A stretch of DNA of 64,000 nucleotides from Streptomyces sp. NBC_00271 (GTDB lineage Bacteria; Actinomycetota; Actinomycetes; Streptomycetales; Streptomycetaceae), in NCBI RefSeq assembly GCF_036178845.1, contig NZ_CP108070.1, positions 124,001 to 188,000 of the forward strand, read 5' to 3'. Of this stretch, positions 47,992-57,951 are shown one piece after another. Position 1 is the first letter of the stretch; every line of letters starts with the position of its first letter. The notes beneath the pieces were generated by a model. It was not told the DNA's origin and did no database searches. It saw nothing but the letters and a program-made list of their open reading frames with translations. A program made the position numbers and the translations under genes.

Positions 47992-48488
47992 CAGTGCGGA
48001 TGCGGGCTCCTCAACACCACGCCGGTGGTGGGCGGGGTCGTCCAGGACCAGCTGGCAGATCCGGAATCGGCCAGGCCCTGGCAGCGGGTTCACGGCGGCA
48101 GCGGCACCCCGGACGAGCACCGACACCTCCTGCAGGCGCGCGATGCCCTGCAGAGCGTGGTGTGCGCGCTACCCGGCCGGCCGCGTCGCTCGCCCCGCTC
48201 CTCAAGGACGTCACCTCCCACCCGCACCTCTCCCCCACCGGGGTGTCCTGGGAGATCGACGCCCCGCAAGAGCGCCGGATGGCGGTGGAGGCCGTCCTGG
48301 CCTGGAGCACACTGCAGGAGACGATGCCCGGCCGCCTGCGGCCGTGTGCCAACCCGGAATGCCGGCGGTTCCTCCTCGACCGCAGCAAGGCCAACAAGGC
48401 CCGCTGGTGCTCGATGGCCGTCTGCGGCAACAGGATGAAGGCCAGGCGCCACTACCAGCGCACCCGCGACGACGGCGCCGCCGAGTAA
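47992..48488 (+). pseudogene. CGNR zinc-finger protein, frameshifted
   Basis: The 3' part encodes 'RLRPCANPECRRFLLDRSKANKARWCSMAVCGNRMKARRHYQR', the CGNR zinc finger typical of ABATE-type stress regulators, ending at TAA 48488. The N-terminal part ('LLNTTPVVGGVVQDQLADPES', 'HRHLLQARDALQSVV') lies in another frame, and the shift is near 48165. The true start cannot be found, so the gene is decayed. Confidence 0.8.
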
Positions 48489-48639
48489 CGAGTCAGCACG
48501 CGGTAGCGGCGGCTGGACCGTGACATGACGGTGGCCGCGACGGGTTGGTGATGTTGTGACGCATTACCGGGCCCGTGCGGCCTTGTCCCATCGCGCCTCC
48601 TGCGGCCTTGACCGTGCACATCTCGGCGTTTAGATCGAT

Positions 48640-49261
48640 GAGTTGACCAGCGCGTGGATGGCCCGGTGCGAGTCCGAGCTGCGCGAGCGTCGCGGCGGAG
48701 AACGCAAGCGGGCCGCCGGAGCCGGGCCGAACCACAAGCTGGTCTTCACTACAGCTGCCACACGCAGCACTGACCGAGTTGTACGGGGTCACCCGGCCCA
48801 CCGTCACCCGCGCCATCCACGAGATCGGCCGCTACTGGCCGCCCGCGGCTTCGCTGCCCCCCGGTCGGCCCGGCATCCGGCTGCACACGCCGGCCCACTA
48901 CGTCCTCGCCTCCGCCCGGGCCGAAGGCGTCGAGCTTCGTATCGACGGCACCCAGACGCAGGTCCGACGTCCCAAGGCCGACCGACCCGGCCGCAAGGTG
49001 TTCGTCTCCGGCAAGAAGAAGCAGCACACCGCCAAGACCACCACCGTCAGTGACGGTTCGGGGCGCCTGCTGTGGCCCGGGGCCGACCGGCCCGGCCGGA
49101 TGCACGACCAGGCCGCGCTGCGCACCGAAGGCATCGCCGAGCAGCTGCGGACACCTCCGCAGGTCACTGTGATGGTCGACGAGGGCCACCGGGGTCTGGC
49201 CAACGACTTCCCCGAACCCACCAGCCGACCGCCACGCAAGCACACCGTTCCTGGGCAGTGA
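48640..49261 (+). pseudogene. IS5-type transposase, frameshifted and truncated
   Basis: Begins with 'CESELRERRGGERKRAAGAGPNHKLVFT', shifts frame near 48750 to 'LTELYGVTRPTVTRAIHEIGRYW', then 'GVELRIDGTQTQVRRPKADRPGRKVFVSGKKKQHTAKTTTVSD' and 'GRMHDQAAL', 'VMVDEGHRGLANDFPE'. This is the helix-turn-helix/DDE_Tnp_4 kind of IS5 transposase. The last ~60 residues with the catalytic Glu are missing where the IS605-type element begins. Confidence 0.8.
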
Positions 49262-49506
49262 GCAGGAGTGAGTCCCGGCTCGCCGGTACGCCCCGAACGG
49301 TCCTTGGGCGCATTGGTCCTCCGCTTTCGCGTCCCGGGGCCGGCAACGCATGTTCTGTATGCGCTCCGTCCCAGGCGGGCGGAATCCCTACGGCTTGGCC
49401 ATCCCTTGCTCTTCGCAGGGAATCCCGGCCTTGAGGCCGGGCGGGAATGCGGTCCTCGGTCTGGAGGCGCGAAGTGCCGGGGTTCTCTGCGTCTGTGTGG
49501 TGACGG

Positions 49507-49936
49507 TCAGGCTGGCCGCTTCTGGCTGTCGATGTAGTCCTTGACGATGCTCAGTGGTGCGCCGCCGCAGGAGCCCGCGAAGTAGGACGGGGACCAGAAC
49601 ACCGAGCCCGTGCCGATTCGGTTCATCCGGCCGGTGTACTCCGCGCGCAGGTAGCGGGAGCTGACGCCCTTGAGGGAGTTGACGAGTTTGGACAGGGCGA
49701 TTTTCGGCGGGTAGTGGACGAGCAGGTGGACGTGGTCGCCTTCGCCGTTGAACTCCCGCAGCTGTGCGCCGAAGCTCTCGCACACGTCCCGCGTGATCGT
49801 CTCGCAGCGCGTCAGCATCTCGCTGTTGGAGATCTCACGCCGGTACTTGGTGACGAACCACCAAGTGTGCATGGAGGTTGTGGATGACCTGGTTTCCCCG
49901 ACGGATATCGGGATCTGGTTCCCAGCGTGATGACAT
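49507..49936 (-). pseudogene. IS200/IS605 TnpA (Y1 HUH transposase), frameshifted
   Basis: The main frame encodes 'FVTKYRREISNSEMLTRCETITRDVCESFGAQLREFNGEGDHVHLLVHYPPK', with the HUH motif HVH, 'LSKLVNSLKGVSSRYLRAEY', and the catalytic Tyr in 'IVKDYIDSQKRPA'. The expected N-terminus, 'MSSRWEPDPDIRRG', then 'VIHNLHAHLV', is one frame away from ATG 49936; one extra base near 49855 breaks the gene. The ATG at 49872 would give a protein lacking the first strand. Confidence 0.85.
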
Positions 49937-51023
49937 ACGCCAAATGTGCAAATGTATTAGGATTGGGTGAAATCGACGGGAGGGGGCGGGTGTTGGGGTG
50001 ATACGTGCGTACAAGTTCCTCATGCGGCCCACCGTCCGGCAGGGTCAGGCGCTGTCCGAGATGCTGCGGGATCACTGCTCCCTCTACAACGGGGCGTTGC
50101 AGGAACGCCGTGACGCCTACCGGCATGTCTCGAAGACGAGCGTCAGATACGGGATGCAGTCCGCGCAGCTCAAGGACATCCGGGCGTTCGACCCGGAGCG
50201 TCAGGGCCGCTGGTCGTTCTCCTCCCAGCAGGCCACCTTGCGCCGCCTCGACAAGGCGATGCAGGCGTTTTTCCGCCGGGTCAAGTCCGGTGAGACGCCC
50301 GGCTATCCGCGTTTCCGCGGGGTGACCTGGTTCGACACGGTGGAGTTCCCCAAGGACGGGGACGGCTGCCGGTGGGACTCCACCCCGCACGACCCCGTTA
50401 CCCGCGTCCGCTTCCAGGGCGTCGGCCACGTCAGGGTCCACCAGCACCGCGCCGTGGCCGGGCGGGTCAAGACCGTGTCGGTCAAGCGGGAGGGCCGTAA
50501 GTGGTTCGTCGTGCTCACCACCGAGCAGGACCAGCCCGAACCGCTGCCCGCGACCGGCAGCGTGGTCGGCATCGACCTGGGCATCGCGAACTTCCTCGCC
50601 GACTCGAACGGCGGGTTCGTGCCCAACCCGCGCCACGGCCGCCGAGCAGCCCAGAAGCTCCAGGCAGCGCAGCAGGAACTGTCCCGGTTCCCGCGCCGCA
50701 AGGCGAAGGACCGCACCGCCAACCACCAGCGCGCGGTGGAGAAGGTCGCCCGGCTCCACGGCAAGGTGCGCCGCCAGCGGCTCGACCACGCACACAAGAC
50801 CGCGCTCGGTCTGGTCCGCGCACATGACGTCATCGCGCACGAAGACCTCAAGATCCGCAACATGAGCAGGGCCCCCGCACCGAAGCCCGACCCCGGCCGG
50901 CCGGGCACCTTCCTGCCCAACGGGGCCGCCGCGAAGGCCGGGCTCAACACGTCGATCAACGATGCCGGATGGGGGGTGTTCCTGACGATCCTGCACGCCA
51001 AGACACCTCACGGAGCTAAGTCG

Positions 51024-52250
51024 TCAAGCAGCTTCGAGAAGTTGTGTGGGGAAGGCGAGGTTCTCGTCGAACAGGATGTGCTTCTGGAGGCAGTGGTAGA
51101 GCTGGCCGATCATCTTGTTGAAGAGGTTTCTCTGAGCGGCGGCGTGCCAGTCCCCGGCCTCGCGGCGGCGGTCGTAGTGGGCCTTTGCGCCCGGTGAGTG
51201 GGTCAGTGAGGCGAAGGCCCACAGGTAGCCGGTGTGGTTGAGCCGGTCGTTCTTCACCCAGCGTCTGGTGATGCTGGACTTCTTGCCGGACGCCCTGGTG
51301 ATGGGGGACGCACCGGCGTAGGCCTTCATTCCGCGGGCAGTGGCGAAGCGGGCGTGGTCGTCCCCGATCTCAGCGAGGATCCGGGCGCCGAGCTGGGTGC
51401 CGAGCCCGGGGAGGCTCAGGATGATCTCGGCGTCCGGATGCTGAGGGAAAACCTCTTCAACCGCCTCGGCGAGCTGGTCGGCGGCCGTGCAGGCGGCTTC
51501 GAGCTGCCGCAGCAGAGCGAGCATCTGCTTGCCGAGCGCGTCCTCGACCAGTAGCGGCTGGTGCGCGTATTCGGCCCGCAGGACCTCGCGGATGCGCTCG
51601 GCGTCGGCATCGATCCGGCGCTGGCGGCCGGCGCGCTTGAGCGCCGAGCGCAGTTGCGCGAGCGACAGCCGGGCCGCCCGCGAGGGCGTGGGGGCGAGTT
51701 CCAGCAGGACGCGGGTCTCAGGGCGGCAGAGACCGTTCTGCCAGTGCAGGTAGGCGTCGAGGGCGGCGGGGAAGTACTCGCGCAGGAGCGAGCGGAGCTG
51801 GTTGGCGAGCTGCTGCCGGTTCCAAACGGCGTCCTGCTGGGCGCGGGCGAGGACGGCGATGGCGCGGGCGAGATCGCTGTCCTGGGGCAATGGCCGGTGG
51901 GCGTGCATATCGGTGCGGAGGATGTTCGCCAGGACGAGGGCGTCGCCGGGGTCGGACTTCTTCCGTGTGACCGCGTGGCGGTCGCGGTAGCGTGCGGCGG
52001 CCATCGGGTTGATGGCGTAGACCTGGCGCTTCCCGGTGCGCAGGACCGCGACGAGCAGACCGCGGGAGGTCTCGATGGCGACCGGGATCGGGTTGTCCTC
52101 GGTGTCGCCGTGCTCGGCGAGCAGATCCAGCAGGATCTTGTAGCCGGTCGCGTCGTCTGTGATGTGGCGCTTGGCCAGGAGCGTGCCGTCGTCGTCGACC
52201 AGGGCGACGTCGTGCGTCTTCTCGGCCCAGTCGATGCCGCAGTAGATCAA
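51024..52250 (-). CDS. IS110-family DEDD transposase (bridge-RNA recombinase)
   Basis: A 408-residue recombinase. The N-terminal RuvC-like DEDD domain has Asp in 'YCGIDWAEKTHDVALVDDDG', Glu in 'VAIETSRGLLVAVL' and the 'KKSDPGDALVLANILRTD' block with the last two Asp. The C-terminal Transposase_20 domain has 'ILSLPGLGTQLGARILAEIGDDHARF' and 'MKAYAGASPITRASGKKSSITRRW', with the catalytic Ser region 'AGASPITRASGK'. The frame is complete; start ATG 52250. Members of the family cut and rejoin DNA guided by a bridge RNA encoded in the element's own non-coding end; both guide loops are recognisable here. Confidence 0.93.
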   Translation of the reverse strand: MIYCGIDWAEKTHDVALVDDDGTLLAKRHITDDATGYKILLDLLAEHGDTEDNPIPVAIETSRGLLVAVLRTGKRQVYAINPMAAARYRDRHAVTRKKSDPGDALVLANILRTDMHAHRPLPQDSDLARAIAVLARAQQDAVWNRQQLANQLRSLLREYFPAALDAYLHWQNGLCRPETRVLLELAPTPSRAARLSLAQLRSALKRAGRQRRIDADAERIREVLRAEYAHQPLLVEDALGKQMLALLRQLEAACTAADQLAEAVEEVFPQHPDAEIILSLPGLGTQLGARILAEIGDDHARFATARGMKAYAGASPITRASGKKSSITRRWVKNDRLNHTGYLWAFASLTHSPGAKAHYDRRREAGDWHAAAQRNLFNKMIGQLYHCLQKHILFDENLAFPTQLLEAA

Positions 52251-52301
52251 CTTTCCCTCCTCGAAGTGCGGGTGTTTGCGCTGGTCACGAGCGCATGCGG
52301 G

Positions 52302-52572
52302 GCCACGCAGCGACCTAATTCCAGGCCTCGATCAAGGAACGGGCCGACACCTCACAAGCCGTTCGTGGCACCAGCTCACCGCACGGGCCCCGGTCTGTTC
52401 CCAGAGCTCAGACGGCTCGGGGAATGCAAGAGATCACCGTGCGACGGGCTCGCACCACCAACTCCAACGAGTGATCAAGCAAACAGTGTTGACGCCGCTG
52501 GTGGCCGTGAAGGCGCCGAACGCCGCCGATCTTGGCGGAGACATGATGGCCGGGCTGAAAGAAGGCGTGCGT
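52302..52572 (-). ncRNA. Predicted IS110 bridge RNA (target and donor loops)
   Basis: In transposase sense (minus strand) two stem-bounded internal loops follow each other, target loop first. Target loop: outer stem 52520-52527 with 52564-52572 (8 bp, one bulge). Inside, 52553-52561 carries the same nine bases as the right flank of the insertion (52835-52843, GGCTGAAAG), and 52531-52537 (CTTGGCG) is the exact complement of the left flank (50996-51002, CGCCAAG). Donor loop: outer stem GCCACG/CGTGGC (52302-52307, 52364-52369) and inner hairpin GGCC/GGCC (52324-52327, 52342-52345). Inside, GACACCTCAC (52346-52355) equals the right end of the element plus core (51002-51011), and CTAATTCC (52315-52322) is the complement of the other end plus core (52828-52835). 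RNA ends are not known; limits given are the outer stems. Confidence 0.85.
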
Positions 52573-53077
52573 CCGGAGCCCACACAACCGCCAGCAGCGT
52601 CAGTGCTGGGTGGGTGGCGGCCACGAGAGCACCGGATGGCGCCGCTCTCTGGGAAGGCATCTTGGCCGTGACGTTGAGAGGTATCCACCGGCACTCACGA
52701 GACCACCACCCGCCAGCTGGGTTGCGCAGCCGTGCTCGTCGCAGACCTGCGGCCCGGCGGGGTGCAAGCGTCACAACCCGTTCGAACCACCTCACCGACC
52801 GGCGAGGGCCGGTGAGCTGGTTACACGGGAATTAGGCTGAAAGCGCCGGACGGGAAGTGATCGCCGTGGACCCCCGCAACACCTCCCGCACCTGCCCCGC
52901 ATGCGGGCACACCGCGAAGGAGAACCGGCCCACACAGGAGAAATTCCACTGCGTCGCCTGCGGCCACCACGCGCACGCCGACACAGTGGCAGCCACCAAC
53001 GTTCTACGGGCCGGGCTGGCCCGTCGCAACGCCAACCCGGCATAGCGAGAAGCCCCGTCCTTCAGGACGGGGAGGAG

Positions 53078-53632
53078 TCACTCCACGCTGCGTACTCCGT
53101 CGACCAGCACCACGACCGCGTCGGTCGCGGCCAGTTTCTCGGCCCGGTGCAGGATGTCGTTCTCGTCGGTGGCGTCCGTACGGGCCACCACCAGGTCCTG
53201 CCGGGTCGCCAGTACCATCTCCAGCTTGGCGAGGTACTCGGACAGCGGCAGCACCTGCTTGCCGTCGGCGTGCCCGCACCGGCGCGGGCGCTTCTGGTCC
53301 TCCAGGATCACCCCCGACGCCCCGATCCGCTCCAGTCCCTCCACGACATGGCAGGCGACCTCAGGGTCGACGTATCGGTCGTCGATGTCCACCAGGAGGT
53401 GGTGGCGCGGGAATGCGCCCCGCAGCCGCTGGACGAACGCCACCATGTCCGGCCAGGCGATGAAGCCGATGTCCGGCAGCCCGTAGTACGAGGCCGCGAA
53501 ACCGAAGCCGGAGACGAACATCCCGTCGTAGTGCTCGGCCGCGCTCGACGCCGAGTACATGTCATACACGCCGATCAGCGGAGTGGTCTCCGGCCCGGCG
53601 ATCTGTTCCCTCAGCTTCTTCCCGTAGGTCAA
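53078..53632 (-). pseudogene. Isocitrate lyase/PEP mutase-superfamily gene, truncated by IS605
   Basis: 184 codons of a TIM-barrel lyase: 'TTPLIGVYDMYSASSAAEHYDGMFVSGFGFAAS', metal ligands in 'HHLLVDIDDRYVD', and the active-site loop 'VILEDQKRPRRCGHADGKQVLP'. The K/R-R-CGH motif is that of (methyl)isocitrate lyases and relatives rather than PEP mutase, which has N-S there. Homologues are ~280-300 residues; here the frame ends in a TGA formed at the junction with the IS605-type right end, losing the last third of the barrel. The missing part is not found beyond the element's left end. Confidence 0.8.
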
Positions 53633-54034
53633 CGTCCGGTTCCTCTCGTGGGGTTGGACACGTCGCGCGGAGAGGGCCGTCGCAACACGACTGCCCTTTG
53701 CCAGAACAAGAGGATCCCTATAGCGACGGACTCTCTCCTTGGAAGGGCTTTGCTCACCTCAATGGCGCAAGCAGTTCACCGGCGAAACGTCACTGGTCCT
53801 CCGTCCGGGCCGCCCGGTTGATCCCGCCGTGCGGACGGGCGCGGAAGCCGGGGTGCGCGCAGGCGGGCGGGGCGGGGCCGAGGGGGTGAACGAGACCCGG
53901 CCGAATGTCCTGTTCCTGGCACCAGACCAGCGGGGGGGGCGCCCGTGCCGCCACCGGGGTTCGGCGACTCGTCGGCGACGCTGTCGTCCGGCTGCCCGGG
54001 AGGTCTCCTGGCGGCGCTGCGGTCCCCGGCGTTC
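53633..54034. other. No gene recognised
   Basis: About 400 bp upstream of the truncated lyase gene; presumably its promoter region. All frames are open by composition only. Confidence 0.4.
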
Positions 54035-54075
54035 AAAAAAGCAGCCCCGCCTCCGGGAGACCGGAGGCGAGGCTG
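54035..54075 (-). terminator. Intrinsic terminator of the tRNA-like gene
   Basis: Stem 54042-54056 with 54061-54075 (15 bp, one mismatch), GAGA loop, followed on the minus strand by six T (54040-54035). It starts three bases past the CCA end of the tRNA-like gene. T-tract terminators are uncommon in this GC-rich DNA, so it is likely real. Confidence 0.85.
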
Positions 54076-54077
54076 TG

Positions 54078-54150
54078 TGGAGCGCCGGGCAGGCCTTGCA
54101 CCTGCATCTCCCCGCAGGAAGCGGGGCGTCTTTCCTTGGACCACCAACGC
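54078..54150 (-). tRNA. Atypical tRNA-Gly(UCC)-like gene, CCA encoded
   Basis: 73 nt that fold as a cloverleaf. Acceptor stem GCGTTGG/CCGGCGC (7 bp, two G-U), D arm with only 3 bp (GTC/GAC) and an 8-nt loop containing GG, anticodon stem CCCCG/CGGGG with loop CTTCCTG (U33, anticodon UCC), 4-nt variable loop, T stem GCAGG/CCTGC with loop TGCAAGG, discriminator T and encoded CCA. Oddities: short D stem, G55 instead of U55, and a pyrimidine at position 37. It has its own terminator. It could be a specialised glycine tRNA, for example for a non-ribosomal use or decoding a restricted codon set, or a decayed copy. Confidence 0.75.
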
Positions 54151-54280
54151 GAGGCCGGCCGCCGGAAGTTCGGCGGCTTGCTCAAGATCAATGATAGCGC
54201 AGTCCCAGCGTCCCGGATCACACGGCGGCGCAGGAACCGGACCGGCTGCCTGGCGGGGCAGCGTCCGGGTTCTCGGGTGT

Positions 54281-55783
54281 TCAGGTCAGGGGAATGGTGA
54301 CTTCGTCCTCGACCGGTGGGTCGAGTTCCTGCGCGCGGTTTCCGGTGGCCGCGAAGCAGCGCAGCCGGACCGCCTCCGGGGTGACGTCCAGGCGCAGGAA
54401 GCACTTGAAGAAGGGCGGGCTGTAGGTCGCCGAGCCCGGTGAGAAGAGCTGGGTGTAGATCTTCCGTACGGGCAGGCGGAAGCGCGAGGTGCGGTCGGGG
54501 CGGCCGCCCGCGCCCAGCAGGTTCGCGATGAGACGGGTGCGCCGGGTGACGCGGGCGGGCGGGCCCTGGGTGCGGGTCGGCGGGATGCCGAGGCGCTCGG
54601 CGACGACGGCTGTCGCCTCGGCCTCGGTGAGGGTGAACAGGCGGCGCAGGCGGAGCCGGTGTCCGTAGAGCCTGCTGTAGAAGGCGAGGGAGTCGCCGCG
54701 CAGCGGGTAGCAGCGGAACTCCTGCTCGGTGACGTTCGCGACACAGACGCGGGGGATGGTGTGGGTGGCGTGCATGAAGGCTCCGCCGCCGCCCGACACC
54801 ACGTACTGGATGGTGCGGCCGTCGACCTGCACCGGGTAGCGCTGGTAGTTGTGGATGTCGCCGCCTATGGCCGCGAGGTAGCGGTGGTCCGGGTCGCGGA
54901 CGAGGTCGTCGACGGTGCCGCCGCCTTCGATGGGGCAAGGGTGGTGTTCGCCGTCCACGTACAGGGGCGAGCCGGTGACGAGGATCTTGGGGAGGGGGCC
55001 CTTGGACACCTCGCGCAGCCATGCGCCCTGTTCGGCGTCGATGGTTCCCAGCAGTCCCGTGTCGATGCCTATGATCCGCACCGGACCGGCGTCGATGGCC
55101 CAGTACGGGCCCGGCTGGACGGCCTGTTGGGCCGGTGAGGAGCGCAACTTGCGTGCTTCGGTGAGGTGTTGTCCGTCGGCCGGGTGCGGCCGGTGCCACA
55201 GCAGTGACCGCAGCCAGGCCCGTGAGAGGGGGCGCGGCGCGGGCTGTGGGGCGAGTGGCGGGGCGTCGTCGCAGAAGACGCGCATGAAGCCGCCGAGGTC
55301 TTCGTACCAGTCGTGGTTGCCGGGTATCGCGTATATGGGTGCCTGGTAGTCCTGGTAGGGGCGGAAGAACTTCGTGCCGTAGTCGTCCGTCCGGCCGACG
55401 GGGTAGATCACGTCGCTGGCGATGACGGCGAATTTCGTTTCCTGACTGGCTTTCAGGAAGCCGGGGACGACGGCGTATTGGGGATCGTCGCCCTCGCCGG
55501 TGTCTCCGATGACCATGAAGGAGAAGTGGTCCGGGTCGTCGCGCCGGATCACCTTGGTGGCGGGTGCTCCGGCGGCCGTCCGCTGTGCCACCCAGCGGCT
55601 GCGGGTGCGGCCCGTGGGATCCCCGAACCAGGAGGCCAGTACGCCGTTGCGTGCGGCCCACAGGGTCTTCGGGTTGAGCCATGAGAGCTTGTCGACCTGG
55701 TGCGGCATGAGGTGCTTGTACTCGCCGTGTTCCAGGGTTCCCCAGCCGGCGCCTTCGGCGGTATCGCGTGAAGAGTCAGACAC
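54281..55783 (-). CDS. Calcineurin-like metallophosphoesterase
   Basis: A 500-residue phosphoesterase with the metal-binding blocks in order: 'FMVIGDTGEGDD' (GDxG), 'VIASDVIYPVG' (usual GDxxY with Ser for Gly), 'PIYAIPGNHDWYEDL' (GNHD), 'LVTGSPLYVDG' and 'AAIGGDIHNYQRY' (GDxHxY). An N-terminal ~70-residue extension precedes the core, and a ~120-residue C-terminal domain follows. No signal peptide, so it is probably cytosolic. Start GTG 55783 ('VSDSSRDTAEG'); the frame is open further upstream. Substrate unknown. It shares orientation with the collagenase gene upstream of it, but the 149-bp gap argues for separate transcription. Confidence 0.85.
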   Translation of the reverse strand: MSDSSRDTAEGAGWGTLEHGEYKHLMPHQVDKLSWLNPKTLWAARNGVLASWFGDPTGRTRSRWVAQRTAAGAPATKVIRRDDPDHFSFMVIGDTGEGDDPQYAVVPGFLKASQETKFAVIASDVIYPVGRTDDYGTKFFRPYQDYQAPIYAIPGNHDWYEDLGGFMRVFCDDAPPLAPQPAPRPLSRAWLRSLLWHRPHPADGQHLTEARKLRSSPAQQAVQPGPYWAIDAGPVRIIGIDTGLLGTIDAEQGAWLREVSKGPLPKILVTGSPLYVDGEHHPCPIEGGGTVDDLVRDPDHRYLAAIGGDIHNYQRYPVQVDGRTIQYVVSGGGGAFMHATHTIPRVCVANVTEQEFRCYPLRGDSLAFYSRLYGHRLRLRRLFTLTEAEATAVVAERLGIPPTRTQGPPARVTRRTRLIANLLGAGGRPDRTSRFRLPVRKIYTQLFSPGSATYSPPFFKCFLRLDVTPEAVRLRCFAATGNRAQELDPPVEDEVTIPLT

Positions 55784-55932
55784 CGGTGAACCGTAGCAAC
55801 GATCACGGACGGGCCGGGGAAGGGGTGCGTGGCGACGCTGCCGTCTCACCCCGCCGCCTTGTCGGGCCGCGGGGTGACAGGGAGAGGCACGGGCAGGGGC
55901 AGGCGGCGGCCGGTTCGGCCGTCAGTGCTCGG

Positions 55933-57951
55933 TCAGCTGCTGCTCCCCCGGCAGGCGCCGGCCGCGCACGTGTCGAGCCAGGCGTCGAAGTCCGCGTCGT
56001 AACGGGTGCCGATGCCGGTGTTGTAGACCGCGTAGGCTCCGGCGTAGTCGCCGGTGCGGAACTTGGTGAGCATGGCCTGCACGTCGTCCGGGTGGTTCTC
56101 AAGCATGTAGCGGACGGCCAGGTAGCCCCAGGGGTAGGTGCGGGTCAGGTCGGAGTTGGCGTACGTGCTCTGCCACAGGGTGCTCAGGGCGTAGGTGTGC
56201 TTCCCGGCATCGAAGAGCGCCTCGGTGTCGGGCATGCCCCGGTAGCTGTACGAGACGTACTCGGCGAAGCCCTCGATCCACCAGATGTCCGGGACCGTCT
56301 GGCCCGCGGAGAAGTCGCCGTAGGTGTCGTAGCGGCCGTCGAGGTAGTGGGTGTACTCGTGGTTCAGGTTCCAGATGTCCGCCGGGAAGCCGTCGCCCAC
56401 GCTCTTCACGTAGGCGACGAAGCGGGCCTGGTTGTCGGGGTCGGCGGGGTTGCCCTCCAGGTATTCGCCGCCGTTGTCGGTGCTGTTGCCGAAGATCCAG
56501 CCTGAGTAGGTCCGGTAGTCCCTGGGGCTCGCGAAGACGACGATCTGGATGGTGGTGTTGCGGTCGTCGGCGACCGGGCCGCTGTCTTTGACGATGCCGT
56601 GGAAGTAGGCGTCCTGTCCCTGCACGCTCTTGCAGGCCTCGGCGAGCGCCGGGCCGGTCAGGGACTGGGCCAGGAACGTGTGCCCGTCATCGCACCTGTA
56701 GGTGATGGGGAGTGCCGCCGCGGTGAGCTGGGACGTCAGGTCGCAGGTGTCGTAGTACGAGCATTGGGCCGCGTCGTGCGCGGAGGTCATCTCGGCGGCG
56801 CCGACCCACAGCGCAGCGGTCGGGCCGGTGATCGAGGAGGCGCCGAGCAGGCCCTTCACCATCGGCCGCACCTTGTCCTTGAGCCCGGCCGTGTCGAGGA
56901 AGCGTGCCGTCTCCGTTCCGGCGTTGGAGGCCATGAAGTACCAGGTCCCGCTCAGCATCGACAGGTGGTTCAGGGTGAACGAGTTCAGCGTGTCGATGAT
57001 GCTCGGGTCGGCGGTGACCGCGCTGATGAACGCGGGGTTGAAGTGGCCGCGGAAGAGCGGGGTGAAGACGTCGTTGACGGCCGTGTCCATGCTCCAGTAG
57101 GCGTCGTAGGAGCTGTCGTAGGCGTTCAGCACTCGCTGGTACGTGTCCAGGTAGCGGGCCTGCTCGTTGGCGCTGTCCGTCAGGATGATGACGTCGCCCA
57201 GGATGTTGCCGTGTTCCGAACTGACGTCCATGAAGTGGGAGTTGGCGGTGAACGTGTCCAGTCCGCATTCGATGGCCGCGGCCAGGGTCGGGCCGTAGTC
57301 GCCGACGTCGGCCGAGTCGTTGTACTGCACGTAGTAGCCGGCGCGCAGGAACAGCACGAGCTGCCACACGTGGGTGGAGTTGTCGCCGGGGTACGTCTGC
57401 GACGCGTCCTGGAAGGCGCCTGCGACGGTCACCATCTGCGCCTCGCGGAACACGTTGCGGGCGTCGGTGCCGGTGATGCCGAACAGCGTATTGATGCAGT
57501 CGGTGGTCGAGTCCTTGATGTATGCGACCAGTTCGGATCCGGTGCGGGTGCCGAAGTCGGCCGGGGTGCACGACGCGGCCGCCGCATCTTTCGTGGCCTT
57601 GGGAGGCCGTACGGCCTTCGAGGATGAGGAGGTCTGCGGCAACTGCGGGCTGAGCGGCCGGACATGGGCGGCGGCCAGTCGCCCGCTCTGGACGTCTGCC
57701 TGCTCGGACGCAGCGGTGTTCGCGCCGAGCGGCGACAGCGCGCGCGGCTCGGGCCTGGTCACGGCGGGGGTTGTGGGAGCAGCTGTCGCGGCGGTCTTCG
57801 GTCCGGCTGCTGCGAGGGCCGGTGCGGCCGGCAGGCCTGCCATCAGGGCGCTGGCCGCCAGGCTGACGGCCAGGAATCTGGGCGCGAATCTGGACGTGAA
57901 TCTGGACGGACTTCCGGGATGGAATCGGGGCAGGGCAGGTCGACGACGCAT
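55933..57951 (-). CDS. Secreted M9-family collagenase
   Basis: A 672-residue extracellular zinc protease. Signal peptide: Arg-rich start ('MRRRPALPRFHPG'), then hydrophobic 'FLAVSLAASALMAGLPAAPALA' with an Ala-X-Ala site near residue 45. A ~130-residue Ala/Pro/Ser-rich pro-region follows. The activator domain of M9 collagenases (helical; 'CINTLFGITGTDARNVF', 'VWQLVLFLRAGYYVQY') precedes the catalytic domain with the zinc motif HEYTH (57-bp region near 56347-56361) and the downstream Glu in 'WWIEGFAEYVSY'. No PKD or collagen-binding domains follow, so it is a minimal form. Start ATG 57951 is set by AAGGAG. Confidence 0.92.
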   Translation of the reverse strand: MRRRPALPRFHPGSPSRFTSRFAPRFLAVSLAASALMAGLPAAPALAAAGPKTAATAAPTTPAVTRPEPRALSPLGANTAASEQADVQSGRLAAAHVRPLSPQLPQTSSSSKAVRPPKATKDAAAASCTPADFGTRTGSELVAYIKDSTTDCINTLFGITGTDARNVFREAQMVTVAGAFQDASQTYPGDNSTHVWQLVLFLRAGYYVQYNDSADVGDYGPTLAAAIECGLDTFTANSHFMDVSSEHGNILGDVIILTDSANEQARYLDTYQRVLNAYDSSYDAYWSMDTAVNDVFTPLFRGHFNPAFISAVTADPSIIDTLNSFTLNHLSMLSGTWYFMASNAGTETARFLDTAGLKDKVRPMVKGLLGASSITGPTAALWVGAAEMTSAHDAAQCSYYDTCDLTSQLTAAALPITYRCDDGHTFLAQSLTGPALAEACKSVQGQDAYFHGIVKDSGPVADDRNTTIQIVVFASPRDYRTYSGWIFGNSTDNGGEYLEGNPADPDNQARFVAYVKSVGDGFPADIWNLNHEYTHYLDGRYDTYGDFSAGQTVPDIWWIEGFAEYVSYSYRGMPDTEALFDAGKHTYALSTLWQSTYANSDLTRTYPWGYLAVRYMLENHPDDVQAMLTKFRTGDYAGAYAVYNTGIGTRYDADFDAWLDTCAAGACRGSSS

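Follow-up and report, generated by a model that had tools for sequence, protein, structure and literature searches.

A probable tandem array of target-binding hairpins in the bridge RNA of an IS110-group element of Streptomyces

The left end of an IS110-group element in Streptomyces sp. NBC_00271 very probably encodes a bridge RNA in which target-binding hairpins are arrayed in tandem and followed by a constant linker and one donor-binding loop. The array appears to hold two clear hairpins and one probable hairpin in this element and up to four hairpins in its relatives. The element lies in the window, by which we mean the whole stretch of 64,000 nucleotides analyzed here (contig NZ_CP108070.1, positions 124,001 to 188,000), and coordinates refer to the window throughout. 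The sequence shows the array, its covarying fold and that copies sharing one array occupy sites to which different hairpins correspond; transcription, the fate of the RNA (kept entire or processed into units), its binding by protein and the activity of each hairpin are inferred.

The whole element spans 51002..52835 on the minus strand (1834 bp from core C to core C), with limits placed where copies cease to agree, and is numbered here from e1 (52835) to e1834 (51002). It is inserted in a tnpB gene whose front part (49998..51001, plus strand) matches OrfB_IS605 and whose rear part (52857..53045, plus strand) matches Cas12f1-like_TNB. A Y1 transposase gene adjoins the interrupted tnpB, and just past the rear part a frame on the minus strand (53078-53632) has PEP_mutase and isocitrate-lyase domain matches. 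The core reads CT on the minus strand and AG on the plus strand, at 52834-52835 and 51001-51002. The recombinase gene (51024..52250, minus strand, 408 aa) has Pfam matches to DEDD_Tnp_IS110 (9e-37) and Transposase_20 (4e-15); the left end of the element is 585 nt long and the right end lies ~22 nt past the stop codon. Of the features of IS110-group membership, the DEDD and Transposase_20 domains, a long non-coding left end, a short right end and guides that match target and element ends across the core are present. Uninterrupted tnpB sites joined at the core, as a first-pass annotation of this DNA had expected of the empty site, occur in 9 of 121 genomes of the genus at up to two mismatches and are exact in five of the nine; the own genome has no such uninterrupted site, either exact or with up to two mismatches.

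Three copies of the element, identical over 1834 bp, are present in the own genome, two of them in tnpB sites and the third (L001) at another site. A search of the same genome (G000) with the IS110 recombinase gave 43 matches with E values up to 0.001, a good part of which are diverged or broken. Related stretches were seen in 38 plasmid records, 36 of them from Streptomyces, with at least 80% of the element covered in only one, and in 10 phage records, every one at less than 60% identity. An Rfam search of positions 48000-56000 returned five matches, each under its gathering score.

All four guide matches that the first-pass annotation had read in the left end are present as it described them. 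In the target hairpin nearest the donor loop (hairpin 3; 52485..52602, minus strand; 96 bits with a covariance model that had this hairpin in its training set), which was used for the tnpB insertion, the left target guide (LTG) CTTTCAGCC (52553..52561, minus strand, e275) matches the left tnpB flank at 8/8 positions plus core C, and the right target guide (RTG) CGCCAAG (52531..52537, minus strand, e299) is the complement of core CT plus the right flank TGGCG. In the donor loop, the left donor guide (LDG) GTGAGGTGTC (52346..52355, minus strand, e481) has the same bases as the element's right end with core C at 51002-51011, and the right donor guide (RDG) GGAATTAG (52315..52322, minus strand, e514) is complementary to CT together with the element's left end, CTAATTCC. 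When the entire left end was scanned at guide-like spacing and compared with 3000 dinucleotide shuffles, the tnpB site was matched at 16/16 positions and the donor (joined ends) at 18/18, each reached by 0/3000 shuffles, which agrees with the earlier judgment that a chance origin is unlikely. The IS621-type layout proposed there also stands: the target loop precedes the donor loop, left guides are same-sense and right guides antisense, and all lie upstream of the transposase gene. What did not survive is the view that this one target loop and one donor loop, set apart by a longer spacer only, make up the complete guide logic, as further target hairpins lie upstream of the interval on which that view was based.

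These upstream hairpins bear on the second site in the own genome. L001 is inserted at GTCAACATC-CT-CTGGGCC, in what we take, by eye, to be part of an IS110-type transposase gene, and its target-loop bases are the same as in the tnpB copies. A 91% identical element of S. acidiscabies is found at the same pair of sites, in tnpB (L017, L018) and in GTCAACGTC-CT-CTGGGCC (L016), again with unchanged target-loop bases. The first-pass annotation had named identical target-loop bases at different sites as the observation that would speak against it, and precisely this is seen in L001 and, outside the own genome, in L016 and L093; the four guide matches nevertheless hold, and the conflict is resolved because the guides of upstream hairpin 2 match that site. 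Hairpin 2 (52601..52717, minus strand) has a left target guide TCAACGTCA (52669..52677, minus strand), which agrees at 7/8 positions with the L001 flank and 8/8 with that of L016, and a right target guide CCCAGAG (52647..52653, minus strand), the complement of CTCTGGG (5/5 plus core). Its overall score is 12/13 against the L001 site and 13/13 against those of L016 and L093. In a scan blind to the hairpins, the L001 flank reached 14/16, equaled by 16/3000 shuffles, and the L016/L093 flank 15/16, equaled by 1/3000; since 16/3000 shuffles reach the L001 match, this single copy is weaker evidence than the whole set of relatives. A covariance-model search of the genome found hairpins 2 and 3, both of which were in the training set, in all three own copies, with hairpin 2 at 85.7 bits; when the search was confined to the window, hairpin 3 was listed but hairpin 2 was absent.

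A probable, weak hairpin 1 lies further upstream (52719..52779, approximate limits, minus strand). It folds as a hairpin and has candidate guides CACCCCGCC (52756-52764, minus strand) and CGACGAG (52735-52741, minus strand), for which the predicted site would be CACCCCGC-CT-CGTCG. The window copy of hairpin 1 gave no match by profile or covariance model, its counterpart in L016 and L018 has a profile match at 1e-4, and no insertion through it was seen.

The folding with covariation that the first-pass annotation proposed as a check supports the hairpin structure. The fold recurs across 218 hairpins (192 distinct): the outer stem is long, the apical stem short, and the internal loop between them has the left guide in its 5′ strand and the right guide in its 3′ strand. 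In 24 diverse hairpins, 91% of cells pair and 27/36 pairs have changed on both sides, figures favored by the fact that the structure was derived from the same alignment on which it was tested; 0/500 shuffles reach any of the five measures, and sliding the pairing partners by 1-3 columns lowers pairing to 34-53%. The guide columns are the most variable, with entropies of 1.75 and 1.89 bits vs 1.15 for the remaining hairpin. Of 147 genomes searched across the order, 24 contain covariance-model matches. For the window left end, the computed RNA fold has -301 kcal/mol (z -4.8), and its dot-bracket can be read as a 5′ hairpin, three target hairpins and a donor part.

Further evidence for the array comes from comparing hairpins with occupied sites among relatives. 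Because relatives share descent, all insertion counts given here are loci, not events. A near right end was present in 47 elements; six near-identical copies and two truncated elements were set aside, and the other 39 formed a first set. When only the hairpin nearest the donor loop was compared with the real site, 14 elements scored 12-13/13, two scored 10 and 23 scored 7 or less; L086, which has a one-base register shift, scores 12 in this comparison. A search of the whole left end located matching guide pairs further upstream in low-scoring elements. A hairpin profile then recognized one to four hairpins per left end plus a few weak matches, and 36/39 insertions were matched by an own hairpin at 10/13 or better. 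The other three are L057, which has two left-end starts 72 bp apart, of which its guides fit the outer one only (13/13); L086, with its register shift; and L089, which no own hairpin explains. L083, whose left flank matches one own hairpin (8/8) and whose right flank matches another (4/5), looks as if it were a recombinant of two copies.

For a wider set, 392 genomes of the genus were searched; relatives occur in 81 at E 1e-150, and 100 of the 117 places listed were taken. The first-set profile was kept, and a one-base register shift was allowed for observed and null comparisons alike if at least 7/8 positions match. Both ends could be placed for 125 of 192 loci, giving 108 distinct insertions; the other 67 were dropped for low identity or truncation (42), lack of a left end (16) or lack of a right end (9). 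The 108 elements carry no hairpin (1), one (27), two (52), three (25) or four (3; L025, L098 and L121), and their left ends, by motif count, one donor loop in 99 cases, two in five and none in four. An own hairpin explains 95/108 insertions, leaving 13 without explanation. Outside the first set the count is 59/71, or 51/63 after removal of insertions whose array and site both recur in the first set on one element.

Among these elements, 79 usable ones have at least two hairpins (sites with N excluded). Exactly one own hairpin matched the site at 10/13 or better in 74 of them, two hairpins never did so, and five insertions were unexplained. The hairpin used was the one nearest the donor loop in 30 of these 74 insertions and an upstream one in 44. 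Used hairpins scored 10-13 and unused ones 1-8 (mean 4.3). The result changes little when identical combinations of array and site are collapsed (70/75 explained; 26 nearest the donor loop, 44 upstream) or when only elements outside the first set are counted (45/49, or 38/42 without those sharing array and site). Random sites drawn with matching column composition score 10 or more in 135 of 39500 draws and never score 12, which real sites do in 58/79 cases. Comparisons between elements reach 10 in 139/9956 pairs, and 118 pairs reach 11 or more; in the 60 of these that were listed, an unused hairpin of one element matches a site occupied by another. The site GAGCC[GT]TC-CT-GGAT[AG] is occupied by L040, L044, L054, L066, L073, L075, L088, L133 and L136, and the second hairpin of L037, which went unused there, predicts this site too. 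A distant relative (47-48% identity, three copies) has a short left end with, by eye, one target loop, which would fit the array as a derived state.

Copies of one array were placed through different hairpins in 23 element pairs belonging to eight array types, with a shared array defined as up to three differing guide bases per hairpin. These types are the window family; L028/L041; L033/L034; L059 with L072 and L090; L107/L108; L126/L127; L141/L143; and L149 and L152 with L153 and L160. Five cases fall within a single genome each (the window copies, L016-L018, L033/L034, L107/L108 and L126/L127). A sister group (60-65% identity) with another donor sequence behaves similarly: L166 and L167, from the same genome, have left ends that differ by 1 mismatch in 448 and sites matched 15/15 by two different loops, and 14/25 elements score 14-15/15 vs 13/504 cross comparisons.

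These placements speak against a reading in which the hairpin next to the donor loop is the sole one still working and copies at other sites date from the reign of an older hairpin, with newer hairpins gained, or existing ones rewritten, afterward. Where arrays are shared in part, the 5′-most hairpin is indeed the one kept most often (37 vs 11 in two-hairpin pairs; 29, 10 and 7 in three-hairpin pairs, with pairs non-independent in both counts), as if new hairpins were added beside the donor loop. However, the own-genome copies, fully identical over 1834 bp, occupy one site that fits hairpin 2 and others that fit hairpin 3, and with seven further array types behaving alike, retired guides would require later homogenization of the copies. 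We consider this account unlikely. It is very unlikely, in turn, that guides act in trans, with bridge RNAs of other elements sharing the same donor ends directing the insertions and the upstream hairpins as bystanders. Donor loops are similar enough among relatives to make this possible, and it could cover some of the unexplained insertions, but the matching upstream guides are in the same element in 44/74 cases, and a search of the own genome for an exact alternative guide pair, with a pattern that demanded exact letters, returned 0. Hardly tenable is the version of the first-pass annotation, a longer IS621-type RNA with one target and one donor loop ~180 nt apart, in which the last hairpin and the donor loop alone do account for the window insertion, but which leaves 23/39 elements at scores of 7 or less, most of them resolved by upstream hairpins.

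Under the array reading, it is natural to ask what the individual hairpins address. A division of labor in which first hairpins lead to chromosomal sites and later hairpins to transposase genes was considered and rejected, as it is a trend only: counting one fragment per site, transposase-type Pfam matches were found at 4/26 first-hairpin vs 10/28 later-hairpin sites (Fisher p 0.12). Restricting the comparison post hoc to sites with any Pfam match gives 4/19 vs 10/16 (p 0.018), and including the L001 site as a transposase gene, a by-eye reading, raises the first-hairpin count to 5/26 (p 0.23). A coding-frame test, which is insensitive, found no difference between first and later hairpin sites (4/27 vs 6/28, p 0.73). 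Of ten fragments picked by eye, eight were of transposase type, a ratio that is no estimate.

Joining of the ends in a circle would create a putative promoter. A proposed -35 box, TTGACG (51022..51027, minus strand), would pair with a TCTAAT formed across the joined ends, which read TTGAC-N18-TCTAAT with a spacer of 18 in 98/108 elements. TTGAC and CTAAT or CTGAT were required in picking the ends of the 108, making the spacing the only free evidence there; TTGAC is present in 39/39 first-set elements, where it was not a requirement. The right end follows the stop codon at a distance of 380-2490 nt in 38 elements, and TTGAC is still found at the right end. Six of the 38 have a transposase frame with an early stop, and the other 32 (of 108 distinct) hold extra DNA, including L041, L044, L045, L052, L068, L072, L081 and L131. 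The idea that the extra genes are immunity genes was dropped, with 1/10 proteins tested (of 12 picked) matching an immunity family; the ten gave Imm21, DUF4240 and Inhibitor_I36 once each, plus weak matches.

The closest known system is IS621, which has a 177 nt RNA with one target and one donor loop (Durrant 2024 PMC11208160; Hiraizumi 2024 PMC11208158). Shared with it are the CT core, the order of target loop before donor loop, same-sense left and antisense right guides, an RNA that precedes the gene and lies in the left end, and a DEDD recombinase; a junction promoter would be a further parallel. It differs in that at least two target hairpins per donor loop are found here, on an RNA of probably ~540 nt, and with this number of target hairpins the window element does not conform to the IS621-type two-loop bridge RNA. 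Membership of the IS1111 group was rejected as well, since the guides lie upstream of the gene and the bridge RNA of that group comes after the gene, in the right end, and so was TIGR-Tas, as the array stands beside an IS110 recombinase, not a Tas protein. The seekRNAs of IS1111 and IS110 types are likewise RNAs of a non-coding region with guides for both target strands, and natural guide change between relatives has been reported for them; an RNA with several targets was not found in the accessible text of that study, in contrast to the several target units per element seen here (Siddiquee 2024 PMC11187229). TIGR-Tas arrays share tandem units with two short guides each for opposite DNA strands, whereas the units here are hairpins, each ~95-120 nt long, that accompany a donor loop and an IS110 recombinase; the Discussion of the same paper treats IS110 bridge RNAs as a single two-stem unit (PMC12045711). 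In an engineered split bridge RNA of ISCro4, splitting the loops is reported, according to a digest, to raise activity (PMC13264000). It shows that target and donor loops can work as separate RNAs, which makes an array mechanically plausible, although it has a single target loop and is not a natural array. The literature searched, which includes few subscription papers and preprints, yielded no natural bridge RNA with several target loops.

The following course of events would be consistent with the array. Excision to a circle would join the ends and form the promoter, and the array would be transcribed from it. Because a junction promoter is described as driving the bridge RNA in IS621, a transcript of ~540 nt from the circle junction, spanning the hairpins and the donor loop, may be expected. 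By analogy with IS621 work, one recombinase dimer could then take the donor loop and another any single target hairpin. The donor loop could serve any loaded hairpin, because the target and donor loops of one IS621 complex are thought to derive from two RNA molecules and splitting is reported to raise activity in ISCro4. The circle would insert at the CT of the site matched by the loaded target hairpin, so that each excised circle might have as many addresses as hairpins.

If so, the element seems able to choose among several destinations. A natural array would mean that one donor loop can serve several target loops and, if true, would be a ready-made multiplex design for RNA-guided insertion. 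It would also offer a related case for what the TIGR paper calls an "enigma", namely how guide arrays arise, persist and grow (PMC12045711). Since the targets are known here, the gain, loss and swapping of guides can be traced, and an array could explain how one conserved address is kept while another guide changes fast. More broadly, and as a tentative proposal that may well prove too general, IS110 bridge RNAs of Streptomycetales could be true guide arrays, with interchangeable target units gained, lost and swapped between elements, so that a single element could address lasting sites on the chromosome as well as transposase genes carried by other mobile elements, an IS110 counterpart of TIGR arrays whose natural targets could be read from the insertion sites.
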